A DNA stretch of 64,000 nt from Halococcus sediminicola (GTDB lineage Archaea; Halobacteriota; Halobacteria; Halobacteriales; Halococcaceae): positions 186,001 through 250,000 of the forward strand of contig NZ_BBMP01000026.1 in assembly GCF_000755245.1 (NCBI RefSeq), read 5' to 3'. The translations under genes and the position numbers were made by a program. The notes beneath the pieces are model-generated. The model did not search any database. It was not told the DNA's origin and saw nothing but the letters and a program-made list of their open reading frames with translations. Shown piece by piece: positions 35,867-42,971 of this stretch (positions within the stretch are counted from its first letter, which is position 1; each line of letters starts with the position of its first letter).

Positions 35867-36475
35867 ATGAGCCGTTTTCACGTCGCGCTCGCGCTCGCCG
35901 CTCTCGTCGTGGTGAGCGGGTGTACGATCCCTGGTGGGTCACTCACCGCCGAGGCGAATCCCGCCTCGGTCGACGAGGGCGCACTCGATGCGACTGGGTA
36001 CGCCGTCGACGAGAGCGCCACCATCGCGCTCAACGAGACCGTCGGCATCGAGGGCGAGGACCGCGAGGTGGGTGTGAAAAACCACATCGAGACGTACGCG
36101 CGAAACGGGGAGTCGGGACGGTTCGTCGTCTTCAGCACGCCGAGTCCCGATACCGATGATGGGCCGGTGAACCCGTTCGCAAAGCGCTCCGAGCGCCGCG
36201 ACGTCGGACGAATGCTCGGCGAGGTGAACAACACGAGCGCGCTCGTAGTCGAGAACAGGCAGAACGTGACGATGGCCGGCCAGCGGACGGAACTCGTGAC
36301 CTACGCGACGACCAATCGATCGGGTGAGACGACCACACCGGTCTTCGTCCACGTCGCCGTCGCGCAGAATGCCGGTGATGCAGTGGTCGCCGTCGGCGTC
36401 CATCCGCAGTCGGTCGACGCGGAAGGGAGCACGAAACGGCTGGTCGAGGGCGTCGAACACGGTGAGTCGGCGTGA
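35867..36475 (+). CDS. Secreted lipoprotein of unknown function
   Basis: A 202-residue protein with a Sec-type signal and a lipobox: MSRFHVALALAALVVVSGCT, lipid-accepting Cys at residue 19. The mature part is acidic with beta-rich segments (YAVDESATIALNETVGIEGE, GQRTELVTYATTNRSGETTT) like small haloarchaeal surface lipoproteins of the DUF6517 kind. It is divergent from the P450 and overlaps the next hydrolase start (GTGA at 36472), so the two are co-translated. Function unknown. Confidence 0.8.
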   Translation: MSRFHVALALAALVVVSGCTIPGGSLTAEANPASVDEGALDATGYAVDESATIALNETVGIEGEDREVGVKNHIETYARNGESGRFVVFSTPSPDTDDGPVNPFAKRSERRDVGRMLGEVNNTSALVVENRQNVTMAGQRTELVTYATTNRSGETTTPVFVHVAVAQNAGDAVVAVGVHPQSVDAEGSTKRLVEGVEHGESA

Positions 36476-37407
36476 GGGGCGATCTCGACCCGCAGGTACA
36501 GATGCTGCTCGATCTGCTGAACGACTACGACATCTCGCTGTCGGGCGACGTGACCGGATCACGACAGCAACTCGATACGATGATGGATCTCGCGGGCGAC
36601 GACCCAGTGGAGGTCGGTGCAGTTTCGGATACTACCATTCCGGCCGAGGACCACGACCTGCCGGCACGGGCGTACGTGCCCGATGGCGAGGGACCGTTTC
36701 CAACTGTCGCGTTTTTCCACGGCGGCGGGTTCGTCCTCGGCAGTCTGGAGGGGTACGACAACCTCTGTCGGCTGTTGGCGCGTCGGTCCGGGTGTCTCGT
36801 GGTGTCGGTTGACTACCGGCTCGCGCCCGAGCACCCGTGGCCGGCGGCGCTCGAAGACGTCTACACGGCGACGAACTGGCTCGCAAGCAACGCCGAGCGG
36901 TTTTCCGGCGACGGCAGTCGATTGGCGGTCGCCGGCGACAGCGCGGGCGGCAACCTCGCGGCGACGGTCTCGCTGCTGGCCCGCGAGCGCGGCATGCCCG
37001 ACATCGACCGGCAGATCCTGCTGTACCCGGCGACGGCGTATCTGGAGCCGATGGAGTCGCGTGCGGAGAACGCGTCGGGCTACTTCCTCACTGCCGAGGA
37101 CCTGCTGTGGTTCGTCTCCCAGTACATTGAGAACGAACTCGACGCGCACAACCCGCTGGCCTTCCCGCTCGCGGCGCGCGACCTGTCCGAGCTACCGCCG
37201 GCGTTCGTCATGACCTGTGGGTTCGACCCGCTGCGCGACGAGGGGGTCGCCTACGCTGACCGTCTCCGGGAAGCCGGCATCGCAGTCGAGCACACCAACT
37301 ACGAGTCGATGATTCACGGTTTCCTCAACATGGAGGGCATCGTCGACCGCACACACGACGGCATCGACGAGATCGCAGCGTATCTACACGACGAACTCGG
37401 CGAGTGA
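36472..37407 (+). CDS. Alpha/beta hydrolase, HSL (family IV) esterase
   Basis: A 311-residue carboxylesterase/lipase of the hormone-sensitive-lipase family. It has the oxyanion motif HGGGF at 83-87, nucleophile S157 in GDSAGGN, the aspartate of CGFDPLRDEG, and the histidine of MIHGFLNMEG. No signal peptide. Predicted start is GTG at 36472 in a GTGA overlap with the lipoprotein gene; an ATG at 36502 is the alternative. Hydrolyses short acyl or aryl esters; the natural substrate is unknown. Confidence 0.9.
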   Translation: MRGDLDPQVQMLLDLLNDYDISLSGDVTGSRQQLDTMMDLAGDDPVEVGAVSDTTIPAEDHDLPARAYVPDGEGPFPTVAFFHGGGFVLGSLEGYDNLCRLLARRSGCLVVSVDYRLAPEHPWPAALEDVYTATNWLASNAERFSGDGSRLAVAGDSAGGNLAATVSLLARERGMPDIDRQILLYPATAYLEPMESRAENASGYFLTAEDLLWFVSQYIENELDAHNPLAFPLAARDLSELPPAFVMTCGFDPLRDEGVAYADRLREAGIAVEHTNYESMIHGFLNMEGIVDRTHDGIDEIAAYLHDELGE

Positions 37408-37432
37408 GGTGTGGCGACCGCGCGGCAGCGGT

Positions 37433-37655
37433 GCGGTTCCTCGGTGGATGAAGGGCGAGCGAACGAGCGGCGCGAGTGAGCGAGGGCTTCTGCGGTGCTG
37501 CACGGCGGCAAGCAGCGTCCGCGCGAGCGGAGCGAGCGCGGTTCACCGTGAGTGACCGAAGGGAGCGAGCGGGGGTTTTTGAGGAACATTTTTGCGAGGG
37601 GTTGAGCGTGAGCGAACGAAGTGAGCGAGCGCGATTCCCCGAGGTAAAAAGGTTC
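37433..37655 (+). repeat. Intergenic GAGCGA-rich repeat, left copy
   Basis: About 220 bp from GCGGTTCCTCGG to AAAAAGGTTC, closely matching the reverse complement of 41011-41223. Blocks such as the one starting GGATGAAGGGCGAGCGAACG and another around GCGAGGGGTTGA are almost identical. Read from the FNR-like gene (minus strand), the element starts right after the TAA with GAACCTTTTTA, a U-run that may end transcription. It contains many alternating GAGCGA/TCGCTC motifs and fills the space 37408-37656, which has no gene. Confidence 0.8.
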
Positions 37656-37656
37656 T

Positions 37657-38298
37657 TTAGCCGAAGTTCTCGACCTTCGCGCGGTCGGGGTCGCCGCCGG
37701 CGGCTTGGAGCGCGTCGGTGGCGACGTCGAGGAAGTCGGCGAAGCCGTAGACGAACACCTGCTCGTCGGGTGTGCCGGCGAGTGCGTTCTCGACCGCGTC
37801 GGTCATTGACTCCTGCTCGTCGAGGACCGTAACGGCCACCCCTGCCTCGTCGAGAGCTGCGAGGCGTTCGTCGTGGATGGGGTCGTCGTCGCGGTAGACG
37901 ATGGCGCTCTCGCCGCCGTCGGCCAGCGTGCGCTCGGCGATGCCGATCGCGGGACCGACGCCCGGCCCGCCGGCGAGCACGGTAGTACGAGGTTCGTCCT
38001 CGTAGTAGGCGTTGCCGAAGGGACCGGCCACCGTCACCGTGGCACCCGGTTCGAGCGCGGCGAGTCGTGGGCCGACGTCGCCGTCGGGATCGATGCCGAC
38101 GGTTATCTCGAAGGTATCCTTGACGCCGGGCGAGGAGAGGGTGTAGAAGCGCGAGACGCGCTCGCCATCGACGGCGAGCGAGAGTTTGACGAACTGACCG
38201 GGACGGGCGTCGAATCCTGCGGGGGTGTGGATGTCGAGCGCGATGGCGTCCGGGCCGACGCTGTGGACGGACTCGACCGGCGTTTCCGTTGGGTCCAT
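37657..38298 (-). CDS. FAD-dependent ferredoxin/flavodoxin reductase-like protein
   Basis: A 213-residue FNR-family protein. The FAD-binding barrel has the R50-F-Y-T motif (RFYTLSSPG), and the NAD(P)-binding domain begins TTVLAGGPGVGPAIGIAE. No iron-sulfur or ferredoxin domain is fused. It is divergent from korA across 87 bp and bounded downstream by the repeat. Electron exchange between NAD(P)H and the ferredoxin reduced by the adjacent 2-oxoacid oxidoreductase is a plausible inference; other flavin reductases of this size are possible. Start ATG 38298 (MDPTETPVESVHSVGP). Confidence 0.85.
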   Translation of the reverse strand: MDPTETPVESVHSVGPDAIALDIHTPAGFDARPGQFVKLSLAVDGERVSRFYTLSSPGVKDTFEITVGIDPDGDVGPRLAALEPGATVTVAGPFGNAYYEDEPRTTVLAGGPGVGPAIGIAERTLADGGESAIVYRDDDPIHDERLAALDEAGVAVTVLDEQESMTDAVENALAGTPDEQVFVYGFADFLDVATDALQAAGGDPDRAKVENFG

Positions 38299-38385
38299 GC
38301 GATTTCTCGACCCGTTTCGGACATATGGACTTCGGTCACGGTTCCGAAGCCTTTTCGTTCGCACGCCGAGTAGCGCGGCTAGCAC

Positions 38386-40152
38386 ATGCCAGACGATTTG
38401 AACTGGGCCATCGGCGGCGAGGCCGGCGACGGCATCAATTCGACGGGGAAGATCTTCGCCCAAGCGCTCTCGCGGGCGGGTCGACAGGTCTTCACCTCGA
38501 AGGATTTCGCCTCGCGCATCCGCGGCGGCTACACCGCCTACAAAGTCCGCAGCTCGACCGAGCGCGTCGAGTCGGTCGTCGACAGGCTCGACGTCCTCAT
38601 CGCGCTGACACAGCGCACGGTCGAGGAGAACATGGACGAACTCCACGAGGGATCGGTCATCATCTACGACGGCGAGCGCACGATGATGGAGGACTTCGAA
38701 GCGCCCGAGGGGATGATCGACATGCCCGTCCCCTTGAAACGGCTCGCACAGGACGCCGGCGGGGCCATCATGCAGAACATCGTCGCACTCGGCGCGGCCT
38801 GCGAGGCGGCGAACTTCCCCATCGAGAACCTGGACGAGGCGCTCGAAAAGCGCTTCGGCGACAAGGGCCAGTCCATCATCGAGAACAACCAGCAAGCCGC
38901 TCGCCTCGGCGAGGAGTACGTCCAAGAGGAGTACGACCGCGAGGACTTCGGCTACGACATCGAGACCACCGACAACGATTACGTCCTCCTCAACGGCGAC
39001 GAGGCCATCGGTATGGGCGCGATCGCTGCCGGCTGCCGGTTCTACTCGGGCTACCCCATTACCCCTGCGACGGACGTGATGGAGTATCTCAAGGGACGAC
39101 TCGAACGGTACGGCGGCCACGTGATGCAGGCCGAGGACGAGCTTTCGGCCATCAATATGGCGCTCGGCGCGGCACGGGCCGGCGCGCGGGCGATGACCGC
39201 CACCTCGGGACCGGGCATCGACCTGATGGCCGAGACCTTCGGGTTGGTGGCGACGAGCGAGACACCGCTCGTGATCTGTGACGTGATGCGCTCGGGCCCG
39301 TCGACCGGGATGCCGACCAAGCAAGAACAGGGTGACCTCAACATGACGCTGTTCGGCGGTCACGGCGAGATTCCGCGACTGGTCGTCGCACCGACCTCGA
39401 TCTCGGAGTGTTTCCACAAGACCATCGAGGCGTTCAACCTCGCCGAGAAGTATCAAACCCCTGTGTATCTGGTCGCCGACCTCGCGCTCGCGGTCACCGA
39501 ACAGACGTTCTCGCCCGAGGAGTTCGACATGGATAGCGTGGAGATCGACCGTGGCAAACTCGTCGGCGAGAGCGACATCGACACGTGGTTGAACGACAAG
39601 GACCAGTTCCAGCCGCACTTCCCCGCCGCGGACGGCATCAGCCCGCGCACGCTGCCCGGGACGTCGGGCGGCGCACACATGACGACCGGACTCGAACACG
39701 ACGAACTCGGCCGGCGAACCGAAGAGCAGGAGGTGCGCATCGAGCAGGTCGACAAGCGAAACCAGAAGGTCGACACCGCGAAGAGCGAGGAAGACTGGGA
39801 CTACCGCGAGTTCGGGGATAGCGATTCGGAGACGCTCGTGCTCTCGTGGGGGTCGAACGAGGGCGCGATGCGCGAGGCGATGGATTTCCTTGACGAGGCG
39901 GACGTCTCAGTGCGATTCATCTCGGTGCCGTATCTGTTCCCGCGGCCCGATCTGACTGAGGAGATCGAGGCAGCCGAGGAGGTCATCGTCGTCGAGTGCA
40001 ATGCGACTGGCCAGTTCGCGGACGTGATCGAACACGACAGCCTTACACGACTGAAACGGGTAAACAAGTACAACGGCGTGCGGTTCAAGGCCGACGAACT
40101 GGCCGAGCGGATCACCGAAGAACTCGACACGCCACAGGAGGTCCCCACATGA
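38386..40152 (+). CDS. korA: 2-oxoacid:ferredoxin oxidoreductase, alpha (gamma-alpha fused) subunit
   Basis: A 588-residue subunit with gamma and alpha domains fused, as in haloarchaeal two-subunit enzymes. The gamma domain (about 1-190) begins LNWAIGGEAGDGINSTGKIF with the SRIRGGYTAY motif. The alpha domain has FYSGYPITPATDVMEYL, TSGPGIDLMAE and the CoA/substrate loop SGPSTGMPTKQEQ. It oxidatively decarboxylates a 2-oxoacid to acyl-CoA, reducing ferredoxin. The companion beta subunit overlaps by 4 bp. 2-Oxoglutarate is favoured over pyruvate because the beta subunit has KorB-like length and sequence, from memory. Confidence 0.85.
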   Translation: MPDDLNWAIGGEAGDGINSTGKIFAQALSRAGRQVFTSKDFASRIRGGYTAYKVRSSTERVESVVDRLDVLIALTQRTVEENMDELHEGSVIIYDGERTMMEDFEAPEGMIDMPVPLKRLAQDAGGAIMQNIVALGAACEAANFPIENLDEALEKRFGDKGQSIIENNQQAARLGEEYVQEEYDREDFGYDIETTDNDYVLLNGDEAIGMGAIAAGCRFYSGYPITPATDVMEYLKGRLERYGGHVMQAEDELSAINMALGAARAGARAMTATSGPGIDLMAETFGLVATSETPLVICDVMRSGPSTGMPTKQEQGDLNMTLFGGHGEIPRLVVAPTSISECFHKTIEAFNLAEKYQTPVYLVADLALAVTEQTFSPEEFDMDSVEIDRGKLVGESDIDTWLNDKDQFQPHFPAADGISPRTLPGTSGGAHMTTGLEHDELGRRTEEQEVRIEQVDKRNQKVDTAKSEEDWDYREFGDSDSETLVLSWGSNEGAMREAMDFLDEADVSVRFISVPYLFPRPDLTEEIEAAEEVIVVECNATGQFADVIEHDSLTRLKRVNKYNGVRFKADELAERITEELDTPQEVPT

Positions 40153-41012
40153 GTTCAGAGATTCGATTCACCGACTTCAAGTCGGACAAGCAACCCACAT
40201 GGTGTCCCGGCTGCGGCGACTTCGGCACCATGAACGGTATGATGAAAGCGCTCGCCAACACGGGCAACGACCCCGACAACACGTTCGTGGTGGCGGGCAT
40301 CGGCTGTTCGGGCAAGATCGGCACGTACATGCACAGCTACGCGCTCCACGGCGTCCACGGCCGCGCGCTCCCCGTCGGCATTGGGGTCAAGAGCGCCAAC
40401 CCCAACCTCGAAGTGATGGTCTCGGGTGGCGACGGCGACGGCTACTCCATCGGCGCGGGCCACTTCGTCCACGCCGTGCGGCGCAACATGGACATGACCT
40501 ACGTCGTGATGGACAACCGGATCTACGGTCTCACCAAGGGTCAGTTCTCGCCGACTTCCCGCGAGGACTTTGAGACGGCGACCTCGCCGGACGGCCCGAA
40601 GCAGGCTCCCGTCAACCCGCTCGCGCTCGCGCTCGCGGCCGACGGCACCTTCATCGCCCAGTCCTTTTCCTCGGACGCCCAGCGCCACGAGGAGATCGTC
40701 CAGCAGGCGGTCGAACACGACGGCTTCGGCTTCGTCAACGTCTACAGTCCCTGCGTGACGTTCAACGATGTTGACACCTACGACTACTTCCGCGACACTA
40801 TCGTCGACGTCGAGGACGAGGACCACGACCCGACCGACCGCGACGCCGCCCGCGAGATGATTACCGACGACGAGACCGAGTATCAGGGCGTCCTCTACCA
40901 GGACGAGGACTCCGTTCCCTACAACGAGCGCCACGGTCTCACCGAGAACATGGCCGACATTCCGGACGGCGCACCCGAGGACGCGACCGACCTCGTCCGC
41001 GAGTTCTACTGA
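40149..41012 (+). CDS. korB: 2-oxoacid:ferredoxin oxidoreductase, beta subunit
   Basis: A 287-residue thiamine-diphosphate and [4Fe-4S] subunit. Cluster-binding CPGCGDFG near residue 19, IGCSGKIGTYMH, the TPP-Mg motif GGDGDGYSIGAGH, and DNRIYGLTKGQFSPT, the last typical of 2-oxoglutarate enzymes. A late Cys (YSPCVTFN) supplies a further cluster ligand. Start ATG 40149 in the ATGA overlap with korA. Its TGA stop lies inside the repeat at 41011, so the transcript runs straight into GAACCTTTTT. Confidence 0.87.
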   Translation: MSSEIRFTDFKSDKQPTWCPGCGDFGTMNGMMKALANTGNDPDNTFVVAGIGCSGKIGTYMHSYALHGVHGRALPVGIGVKSANPNLEVMVSGGDGDGYSIGAGHFVHAVRRNMDMTYVVMDNRIYGLTKGQFSPTSREDFETATSPDGPKQAPVNPLALALAADGTFIAQSFSSDAQRHEEIVQQAVEHDGFGFVNVYSPCVTFNDVDTYDYFRDTIVDVEDEDHDPTDRDAAREMITDDETEYQGVLYQDEDSVPYNERHGLTENMADIPDGAPEDATDLVREFY

Positions 41013-41223
41013 ACCTTTTTACTTCGGGGAATCACTCGCTTCGCTCGTTCAACCCCTCGCAAAAAGGTTCATGAAAAACTTCCGCTCGTTCGTCTTCGAC
41101 TCACTCGCGGTGAACCGCGCTCACTTCGTTCGTGCGGATACAACACTCTCCGCAAAGCACCGCCGAAGCCCTCGCTCACTCGCTCCGCTCGTTCGCTCGC
41201 CCTTCATCCGCCGAGGAACCGCG
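41011..41223 (-). repeat. Intergenic GAGCGA-rich repeat, right copy
   Basis: Inverted partner of 37433-37655. It starts GAACCTTTTTAC directly at the korB stop and ends CCGAGGAACCGC. A 10-bp perfect inverted repeat, GAACCTTTTT (41011-41020) and AAAAAGGTTC (41061-41070), encloses a 40-nt loop. The left copy has the same design with one mismatch. The space 41013-41308 has no gene. Confidence 0.8.
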
Positions 41224-41308
41224 ACTGCTACCGCCCCAGCGGCCGCACCGCAGCCGCCGGTAACGGGTGGCACAAAACACTGATGACGCCGGGCGAAATC
41301 CATCGAGT

Positions 41309-41830
41309 ATGCCTGGTCCCGCATTCCTCGAAGGCGAGCAAATTACGCTCAGACCGCCCGAAAAGGAGGACGTCGAATTCCTCGCACGGAACATGAACGA
41401 CCCGCGGGTGCGCCGCCCGATCGCCTCGGTCGGGCCGCTGAGTACGGACGACGAAGCCGAATGGGTCGAGGGAGCCAACGAGGAGGGTGTGTCACTGCTC
41501 ATCTGCGTCGGCGACGACCCCGTGGGAACCATCGGTCTCTCGGACGTCAACGAGCTATGGGGCCGTGCGGAGATCGGCTACTGGCTCGCCCCTGATGCGT
41601 GGGGCGAGGGCTACGCGACCGAGGCGACTGAATTGCTCGTCGCGTACGGCTTCGATCAGCGCCGATTCAACAAAGTCGTCGCCCACGCCTTCGCGTTCAA
41701 CGCCGCTTCGCGCCGCGTGCTCGAAAAGGTCGGCTTCGTCGAGGAGGGCGTCCACCGCAAGGAGGCATTTATCGACGGCGAATACGTCGATATCCACAGT
41801 TACGGCCTGCTGGCCGACGAGTACGAGTGA
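41309..41830 (+). CDS. GNAT acetyltransferase, RimJ/RimL type
   Basis: A 173-residue GNAT protein: ITLRPPEKEDVEFLARNMND at the start, the acetyl-CoA segment GYWLAPDAWGEGYATEATEL, and the typical VAHAFAFNAASRRVLEKVGF ending. RimJ/RimL-like enzymes acetylate protein N termini or small amines. Here the substrate is unknown. It is convergent with the acyl-CoA dehydrogenase (stop codons 1 bp apart). Start 41309 chosen over the ATG at 41267 since homologues begin near the first beta strand. Confidence 0.87.
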   Translation: MPGPAFLEGEQITLRPPEKEDVEFLARNMNDPRVRRPIASVGPLSTDDEAEWVEGANEEGVSLLICVGDDPVGTIGLSDVNELWGRAEIGYWLAPDAWGEGYATEATELLVAYGFDQRRFNKVVAHAFAFNAASRRVLEKVGFVEEGVHRKEAFIDGEYVDIHSYGLLADEYE

Positions 41831-41831
41831 C

Positions 41832-42971
41832 TCAGAGACCCAGTTCCCTGCCGATGACGAGGTGCTGGATTTCGGAGGTTCCCTCGCCGATTTCCATGAG
41901 CTTCGCATCACGGTAGAACCGCTGTGGCGCGAAGTCGGTGGTGTAGCCATACCCTCCCAAAACCTGCACGGCGTCCTCGGCGACTTCGCGGCTGATCTCG
42001 CTCGCGTCGAGTTTCGCCAGCGCGCTGAGTCGAGTGACGTCCTTGCCGGCGTCGTAGGTCGTCGCGGCTTTGTGGGTTAGCAGGCGCGCGCGCTCGATCT
42101 TTCGGTCCATGTCGACGATCTTGTTCCGTACGGCGTCGAACTCGGCGATGGGCTGGCCGAACTGCTCGCGCTCGGTCGCATAGGATTTCGCCGCCTCGTA
42201 GGCTCCCTGTGCCAGTCCCACCGAGAGCGCCGCGATCGAGATGCGCCCGCCATCCAGCGTCTTCTTGGTCTGATTCCACCCTTCACCCTCCGCGCCGAGC
42301 AGGCGATCCTCGGAGAGGCGCACGTCGTCGAGTTGGATTTCACACGTCGGCGAGGCGTTGAGTCCCATCTTGTCCCAGATCGTCGTGACCTCGAACCCGT
42401 CGTCGTCGGGGTCGACGATGAACGTCGAAATCCCGTCGTAACCCGCCTCGGGGTCCGTGACCGCCTTCACCAGCACCGAACCCGCCTCGCTGGCGTTCGT
42501 GATGAACTGCTTGGTGCCGTTGAGCACGTATTCGTCGCCCTCTTTTTCGGCGTGGGTGTCCATGTCGCTGGCGTCCGACCCGCTGCTGGGTTCGGTGAGC
42601 GCCCAGCCACCCATGTGTTCGCCCTCGGCGAGCGGACGGAGCCACTCCTCCTTTTGTTCGTGTGTCCCAAAGAGTTCGAGCGGCTTGGAGGCCAGCGAGA
42701 CGTGGGCGGCATAGGAGAGCCCGATCGAGCCGGAGACGCGCCCGAGTTCCTCGGTCACCAAGGCGTACATGAGCTGGTCGCCACCCAATCCCCCGTACTC
42801 CTCGCTGATGGGGACGCCCATCACGTCGAGGCTTCCCAACTCCGCGAACACCTCCTCGGGAAAGCGGTGTTCGTCCTCGATCTCCTGGGCGAGCGGTTCG
42901 ATTTCGGCCTCGCAGAACTCACGGACCGTATCGCGCATCATCCGATGCTCGTCGGGCAGGTCGAAATTCAT
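41832..42971 (-). CDS. Acyl-CoA dehydrogenase
   Basis: A 379-residue FAD enzyme of beta-oxidation or branched-chain amino acid breakdown. It has MNFDLPDEHRMMRDTVREFC, AHMGGW-type WALTEPSSGSDASDMDTHAE, TCEIQLDDVRLSEDRLLG, and a C-terminal YRDAKLMEIGEGTSEIQ in which the Glu before GTS is the expected catalytic base. Full length. It shares a symmetric divergent promoter with the kinase gene; its TATA is about 25 bp before the ATG, so the mRNA is leaderless. Confidence 0.93.
   Translation of the reverse strand: MNFDLPDEHRMMRDTVREFCEAEIEPLAQEIEDEHRFPEEVFAELGSLDVMGVPISEEYGGLGGDQLMYALVTEELGRVSGSIGLSYAAHVSLASKPLELFGTHEQKEEWLRPLAEGEHMGGWALTEPSSGSDASDMDTHAEKEGDEYVLNGTKQFITNASEAGSVLVKAVTDPEAGYDGISTFIVDPDDDGFEVTTIWDKMGLNASPTCEIQLDDVRLSEDRLLGAEGEGWNQTKKTLDGGRISIAALSVGLAQGAYEAAKSYATEREQFGQPIAEFDAVRNKIVDMDRKIERARLLTHKAATTYDAGKDVTRLSALAKLDASEISREVAEDAVQVLGGYGYTTDFAPQRFYRDAKLMEIGEGTSEIQHLVIGRELGL

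Follow-up and report, generated by a model that had tools for sequence, protein, structure and literature searches.

A putative gene-end terminator element of Halococcus and its inverted pair around the FNR-korA-korB block

In the 64,000-nucleotide (nt) stretch of the Halococcus sediminicola genome analysed here (the window), both ends of the divergent block FNR-korA-korB run into copies of one element of about 215 nt. With moderate confidence, we read it as a haloarchaeal gene-end terminator that belongs to the upstream gene and that became, in Halococcus, a family of copies exchanging modules. Its position and its T-runs strongly suggest the terminator role. The T5-6 run, 0-15 nt past the stop codon, would end the transcript of the upstream gene. 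On the opposite strand, a GC-rich hairpin (module 2) followed by two T-runs would stop oncoming transcripts, giving termination in both directions. The arms of the element pair and covary, and the sequence of its GA strand is suited to folding into hairpins of purine-pyrimidine (RY) steps and GA mismatches with GNA caps. In Halococcus, the element has expanded to a family of about 50 copies swapping modules by recombination or gene conversion, and exchange between the copies at the FNR and korB ends probably helped to change the orientation of the block. If this is correct, the element is a defined, covarying, order-wide gene-end signal that bears on archaeal termination beyond a run of U, and a natural case in which terminators also serve as scattered homology through which gene blocks are rearranged. 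It brings with it a strand-specific, non-Watson-Crick hairpin rule.

Position behind gene ends and copy number

The right element (41011..41222, plus strand; nhmmer 9e-51) starts at the korB stop codon, its GAACC beginning at 41011 within the TGA (41010-41012). The left element (37433..37655, minus strand; nhmmer 1e-47) has its GAACC at 37655, one base past the FNR TAA (complement of 37657-37659). The block consists of FNR (37657..38298, minus), korA (38386..40152, plus) and korB (40152..41012, plus). To its left lies a hydrolase gene (36472..37407, plus), which adjoins FNR in H. sediminicola and korB in Halococcus thailandensis, H. morrhuae and a third sister genome, G004. The names FNR, korA and korB are those of an earlier, sequence-only reading and the hydrolase was named by inspection; none comes from a family search.

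Aligned over their full length (minus strand from 37655, plus strand from 41011), the two copies are 80% identical over 225 columns. The long inverted arms include the distal ends of the pair, with 96% over 67 nt (37433-37499 and 41156-41222). Since FNR and korB each end in the element, inverted homology flanks the divergent block on both sides. The sequence-only reading had described an inverted pair of about 215-bp elements right after the stop codons, with the korB TGA belonging to one of them, and the coordinates, orientation and full alignment agree with this. It had also assigned a GAACCTTTTT/AAAAAGGTTC stem to each copy. This stem is perfect in the right copy, but the left copy has AAAAATGTTC as the second arm, with one mismatch. 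The sequence GAACCTTTTT occurs 3 times in the window, versus 0.02 expected.

Counting copies genome-wide and placing them relative to stop codons had been proposed as a check, and both results favoured a gene-end element present in about 50 copies. At least 49 BLAST matches to the right copy were found in the H. sediminicola genome (the best 40 of 106 first-look candidates were scored), and the 12-mer CGCCCTTCATCC has 50 exact occurrences there, versus 2 for a reversed control pattern. A profile was built from 30 copies and run on 54 stretches of the genome, giving 54 elements after split matches were merged (C22:142431 and C22:142594 are one element divided by an insert). The 5' edge is intact in 43/54, and 30 of these 43 begin at -1 to +8 nt relative to a stop codon called on the same strand. 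This is a lower bound, because the simple gene caller overlooked FNR and possibly a few other genes. FNR and the 3' ends of two tRNA-Arg genes bring the gene-end-linked copies to 33/43; behind the tRNA genes (CCT and TCT anticodons; loci L023 and L160), the element starts 1-4 nt past the 3' end. The genes upstream of elements include those for PCNA, RadA, elongation factor 2, Cdc48, aconitase, ferredoxin and DNA polymerase B, named by inspecting translations, not by family search.

Modules, T-runs and the hairpin rule

Module 1 carries the T-run for the upstream gene. Its general layout is NNNC(C/T/G)T5 at the stop codon, AC, a variable stem and A5NN(NNN'), with a second A5 8 nt further on. 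In the right copy it spans 41011..41070 (plus) and consists of GAACCTTTTT, a variable hairpin and AAAAAGGTTC, the T-run for korB transcripts lying at 41016-41020. In the left copy it spans 37584..37655 (minus), with the T-run for FNR transcripts at 37650-37646. The two A5 runs of the right copy (41061-41065 and 41074-41078; 41061..41078) are T5 runs on the opposite, minus strand, in the reverse direction. Their counterparts in the left copy are two plus-strand T5 runs (37576-37580 and 37589-37593; 37576..37593), which face transcripts of the hydrolase gene ending at 37407. Runs of at least five T have only 35 start positions on both strands of the window.

The arms of module 1 covary. The triplet NNN on the T flank is complementary to NNN' on the A flank in 62/67 elements, with a mean of 21.4 and a largest value of 32 in 5000 shuffles; seven of the 74 elements did not match the pattern and were excluded. 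Six triplet types occur (CCA/TGG, GAA/TTC, GTA/TAC, CGA/TCG, GCA/TGC and AAA/TTT), and the subtypes switch between orthologs at the same site, both triplets altering together.

Modules 2 and 3 are hairpins. Module 2 (41082..41110, plus; CCGC..GCGG) precedes the T5 runs on the minus strand. Module 3 (41115..41137, plus) has TC/TC mismatches and a TTC loop, which are GA/GA and GAA on the other strand. Module 4, the conserved distal end, consists of GAAGCCCTC, a hairpin and CTCGCCCTTCATCC, the two flanks being constant in the alignment; it lies at 41165..41209 (plus) in the right copy, within the 96% tract of 67 nt, and at 37446..37490 (minus) in the left copy. In some elements (L172, L178 at a PCNA end, L018, L021, L027, L083, L088 and L141), double-hairpin modules (CTCACGGG..CCCGTTCGCATGG.. 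and GAGAGCTTCGCTCTCTCGTGATGACG..) are nested in the hairpins. These occur in Halococcus and in other genera and seem to form another palindromic family, which may be mobile.

The long GAGCGA-type alternations pointed out in the sequence-only reading were found to obey a strand-specific rule. On the sense strand, the two arms alternate between paired RY dinucleotides and TC/TC, with a TNC loop at the tip; on the opposite strand this gives GA/GA between a pyrimidine (Py) and a purine (Pu), capped by a GNA triloop. The dinucleotides are complementary in 88 of the 155 TC..TC contexts in 34 H. sediminicola copies (shuffle mean 10.8, largest 21), and 76 of these 88 have a TNC loop. For 74 copies from the genus, the counts are 185/341 and 156/185, respectively. 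The rule is confined to three-base loops (54%, versus 1 to 20% at other loop sizes). The GA strand is the more stable fold in 74/74 elements, with RNA as well as DNA parameters. The elements alone show the rule, a mismatched-hairpin scan over whole loci, including coding sequence, giving no signal. Sense-strand RNA folding of each whole window copy was unexceptional (z of -1.0 and 0.5). UNCG tetraloops on the sense strand can be ruled out as the cause of the TNC loops, because TNC holds in 18/18 contexts of the GT/AC class, in which A follows. On the GA strand, just 5 of the 33 four-base loops of perfect stems are GNRA.

These regularities raise an alternative that we regard as somewhat unlikely, namely that a structured RNA or single-stranded DNA fold on the GA strand is what is selected, the T-runs being only its boundary and the function being RNA stability, protein binding or DNA topology, not termination. 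The strand-specific rule and folding are consistent with it, as are the conservation of module 4 and the description of GNA triloops as very stable DNA minihairpin loops (Yoshizawa 1997, as cited in PMC6479982), but the T-runs and the stop-codon position are the most constant features of the element and no Rfam family matches it. A more speculative proposal, which we consider rather unlikely as it stands, is that the elements are selected to fold as the GA strand through RY Watson-Crick steps, tandem sheared G.A pairs and GNA triloops. Tandem sheared G.A pairs prefer a PyGAPu context. Such a code would suit single-stranded DNA (a cruciform or a displaced template strand) at haloarchaeal gene ends, and the fold would be involved in termination or in the release of supercoils and would turn the copies into targets for exchanging modules. 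The GA-strand fold is our best lead for why modules 2 to 4 persist.

Conservation, related repeats and mobility

All nine other genomes labelled as the same genus carry the element, with at least 19 matches each (19 candidates were scored per genome), and weak matches were found in 8/31 genomes of other genera. Its place behind particular genes is conserved. The radA 3' end has the element in 9/10 Halococcus genomes and in 0/8 other genomes of the family; the tenth radA end (G007, L197) has a decayed partial copy, the partial profile match beginning about 240 nt downstream. The PCNA and korB ends likewise carry it in 9/10 Halococcus genomes each, and something similar is present at the PCNA end in 3/4 genomes of genus g3, two by profile and one by eye. 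Outside H. thailandensis and H. morrhuae, whose KorB is 95% identical to that of H. sediminicola, a profile match stands behind korB in 8 of 78 loci (L070, L081, L087, L094, L109, L110, L113 and L139), and a few further loci resemble the element by eye. In Halorarius litoreus (L110), FNR as well as korB is followed by a match. The core signature AAAAANCTNNNCNAAAAA is found in 223/293 genomes of the order, with 10 to 49 occurrences per Halococcus genome; its reversed control gave mostly 0, with up to 6 on a strand in a few genomes of family f14. Against Rfam only tRNAs matched; no family reached the gathering score for the element, or E<=1 at window positions 37000-42000. We recognised no description of the element in the literature, in a search covering few subscription journals.

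Among known systems, the archaeal U-tract terminator of Haloferax volcanii (Berkemer 2020) is alike in having an intergenic run of T downstream of genes, sometimes with hairpins, and an inserted T5C is reported there to stop 95% of transcripts in vivo (PMC7237163). The Halococcus element has such a T-run close behind the gene end. Together with the stop-codon position, these data favour the 3' element acting as a terminator that the sequence-only reading had suggested, a role that we infer. The Haloferax terminator is short, a run of T with a conserved TC, whereas in Halococcus the T-run forms one arm of a hairpin that covaries, is followed by three more hairpins and a conserved distal motif, and is repeated as a family. 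The bidirectional terminator stem-loops of low-GC Firmicutes are similar in the A- and T-runs flanking a stem near stop codons (PMC1590033); unlike these, the Halococcus element has, for the upstream gene, the T-run on the 5' arm, the A-run on the 3' arm and a second A-run 8 nt further.

Bacterial repetitive extragenic palindromic (REP) sequences, bacterial interspersed mosaic elements (BIME) and other interspersed palindromic repeats are also dispersed, intergenic and palindromic, some lying within 15-20 nt of a stop codon according to PMC12306157. REPs are given as 20-40 bp palindromes with GTAG or CGTC tags in PMC3733652, whereas the haloarchaeal element measures about 215 nt and shows no such constant tag on inspection of the alignment.

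Similarly, the palindrome-associated transposable elements (PATEs) of Haloquadratum walsbyi are short, lack a transposase and have near-terminal palindromes and no inverted ends (PMC3119063). A non-autonomous mobile element of this kind, or a miniature inverted-repeat transposable element (MITE), that favours gene 3' ends and in which the T-runs are incidental would account for the roughly 50 dispersed copies and for the nested hairpin modules of some of them; by inspection, near-terminal palindromes without inverted ends are present here too. Nevertheless, we consider this origin improbable. MITE-type terminal inverted repeats are not seen in the 30-copy alignment by inspection (ACCTTTTTAC.. 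versus ..CATCCRCC), and the one match in plasmids spans 42% of the query, phages giving none. PATEs show strain-specific insertions, whereas no insertion polymorphism was seen between close relatives at the PCNA, radA and korB ends, which keep the element through the genus. No clear empty site was found. The element-free orthologs in the genus are one PCNA end and the FNR end of the sister clade; the latter (H. thailandensis and H. morrhuae) has diverged and is not a clean empty site, so that it fits insertion or loss alike. Since the copies stay with their genes, transposition is unsupported, contrary to the sequence-only reading, and it is not needed.

Orientation of the block and exchange between copies

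In G004, H. thailandensis and H. morrhuae, the order is korB, element, hydrolase, the two genes being convergent, while in H. sediminicola it is hydrolase, element, FNR. The hydrolase and six further genes left of FNR in H. sediminicola sit right of korB in the other three. These sister lineages thus have the FNR-korA-korB block in opposite orientations with respect to the hydrolase flank, and the hydrolase-side junction is an element in both. Elements stand at both block ends in H. sediminicola, G002, G003 (korB copy partial), G005, G007 (FNR copy partial) and G008, and at the FNR end in G006. In G002 and G003 the FNR-side flank is common and the regions beyond the element of korB differ. The junction of the element with a GNAT gene lies behind korB in H. 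sediminicola and behind other genes in G005 and G007.

The element has a mosaic structure. The best paralogs of the korB copy differ by module, being L003/L004 for module 1, L014 (95%) for module 2, L007 for module 3 and the FNR copy for module 4. Module 4 is 96% identical between the korB and FNR copies, versus 86% for the next one in the same genome, and the distal 67 nt are reciprocal best matches. Because the best paralogs differ, exchange of modules is indicated, the latest between this pair at the junction-side end. Within-genome similarity of the pair is greatest in H. sediminicola and, for its FNR copy, in G005. In addition, module 4 of the FNR-side element of G005 (L255) is 94% identical over 79 nt to the H. 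sediminicola copy behind a Cdc48-like gene (L025), which exceeds its matches to the other genus copies examined.

From these sequence comparisons, exchange between element copies probably contributed to the difference in block orientation between the sister species. The H. sediminicola assembly is a draft, but misassembly is unlikely, the pair being too divergent. It is a sizeable possibility, though the lesser one, that the block inverted independently of the elements, rearrangements falling at transcription-unit ends where elements happen to stand. In its favour, synteny also changes on the upstream side of PCNA, and the FNR-side junction of the sister clade has no element. Against it, the 96% module-4 tract is common to just this pair, the within-genome similarity recurs in G005, and different upstream neighbours are joined to the same element-GNAT junction in H. 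sediminicola, G005 and G007. The recombination substrate able to flip the block, proposed in the sequence-only reading alongside the terminator, thus has support as well, and we infer both roles. The inversion in relatives that it had suggested looking for is present, relative to the hydrolase flank, and is not a simple flip.

Several observations weigh against a terminator family that reshuffled this block by exchange. A T-run would terminate by itself, so termination does not account for the roughly 150 nt of hairpins that follow it. Of the 43 copies with a 5' edge, 10 begin at neither a called gene end nor a tRNA; some of these may lie behind missed genes. The next gene downstream is convergent in 28/54 cases and co-directional in 26/54, so a two-way terminator is not required everywhere. 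FNR lacks an element in the sister clade, where the outer flank is also different, so the observed orders do not follow from a single exchange between two elements. The outer-flank gene set of the sister clade lies 100 kb away in H. sediminicola, behind another element (L020), and in H. thailandensis its GNAT gene, without an upstream element, is at a distance of about 150 kb, so that the two orders must be more than one event apart; comparing the R1 and GNAT moves gave no single-step history. Finally, the neighbours of PCNA are conserved in 3/9 genomes upstream and 3/9 downstream; having changed equally on both sides, they do not show that elements break more readily than the ends of other transcription units. 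General rearrangement hot spots at the elements are thus not borne out by this comparison. For radA, the upstream neighbour is kept in 9/9 and a high-identity downstream neighbour in 3/9.

A 789-aa gene lies near FNR in H. thailandensis (L249 1698-4288; G000:C26:327409-329757). In H. sediminicola it stands directly behind the L020 element, 100 kb from the block, and the intervening gene L249_4288 is missing there. Within the window, a weak partial match to the element start at 655-748 (CCACCTTTTTACTCCTCGG; E 0.04) is probably what remains of a copy, or else a T-run terminator with no relation to the element. Spurious Arg/Ser-rich (SERSER) frames lie over the elements in the list of open reading frames, in several frames at window positions 37314-37832 and 41071-41550, and such repeat frames across elements may be mis-annotated as small proteins.

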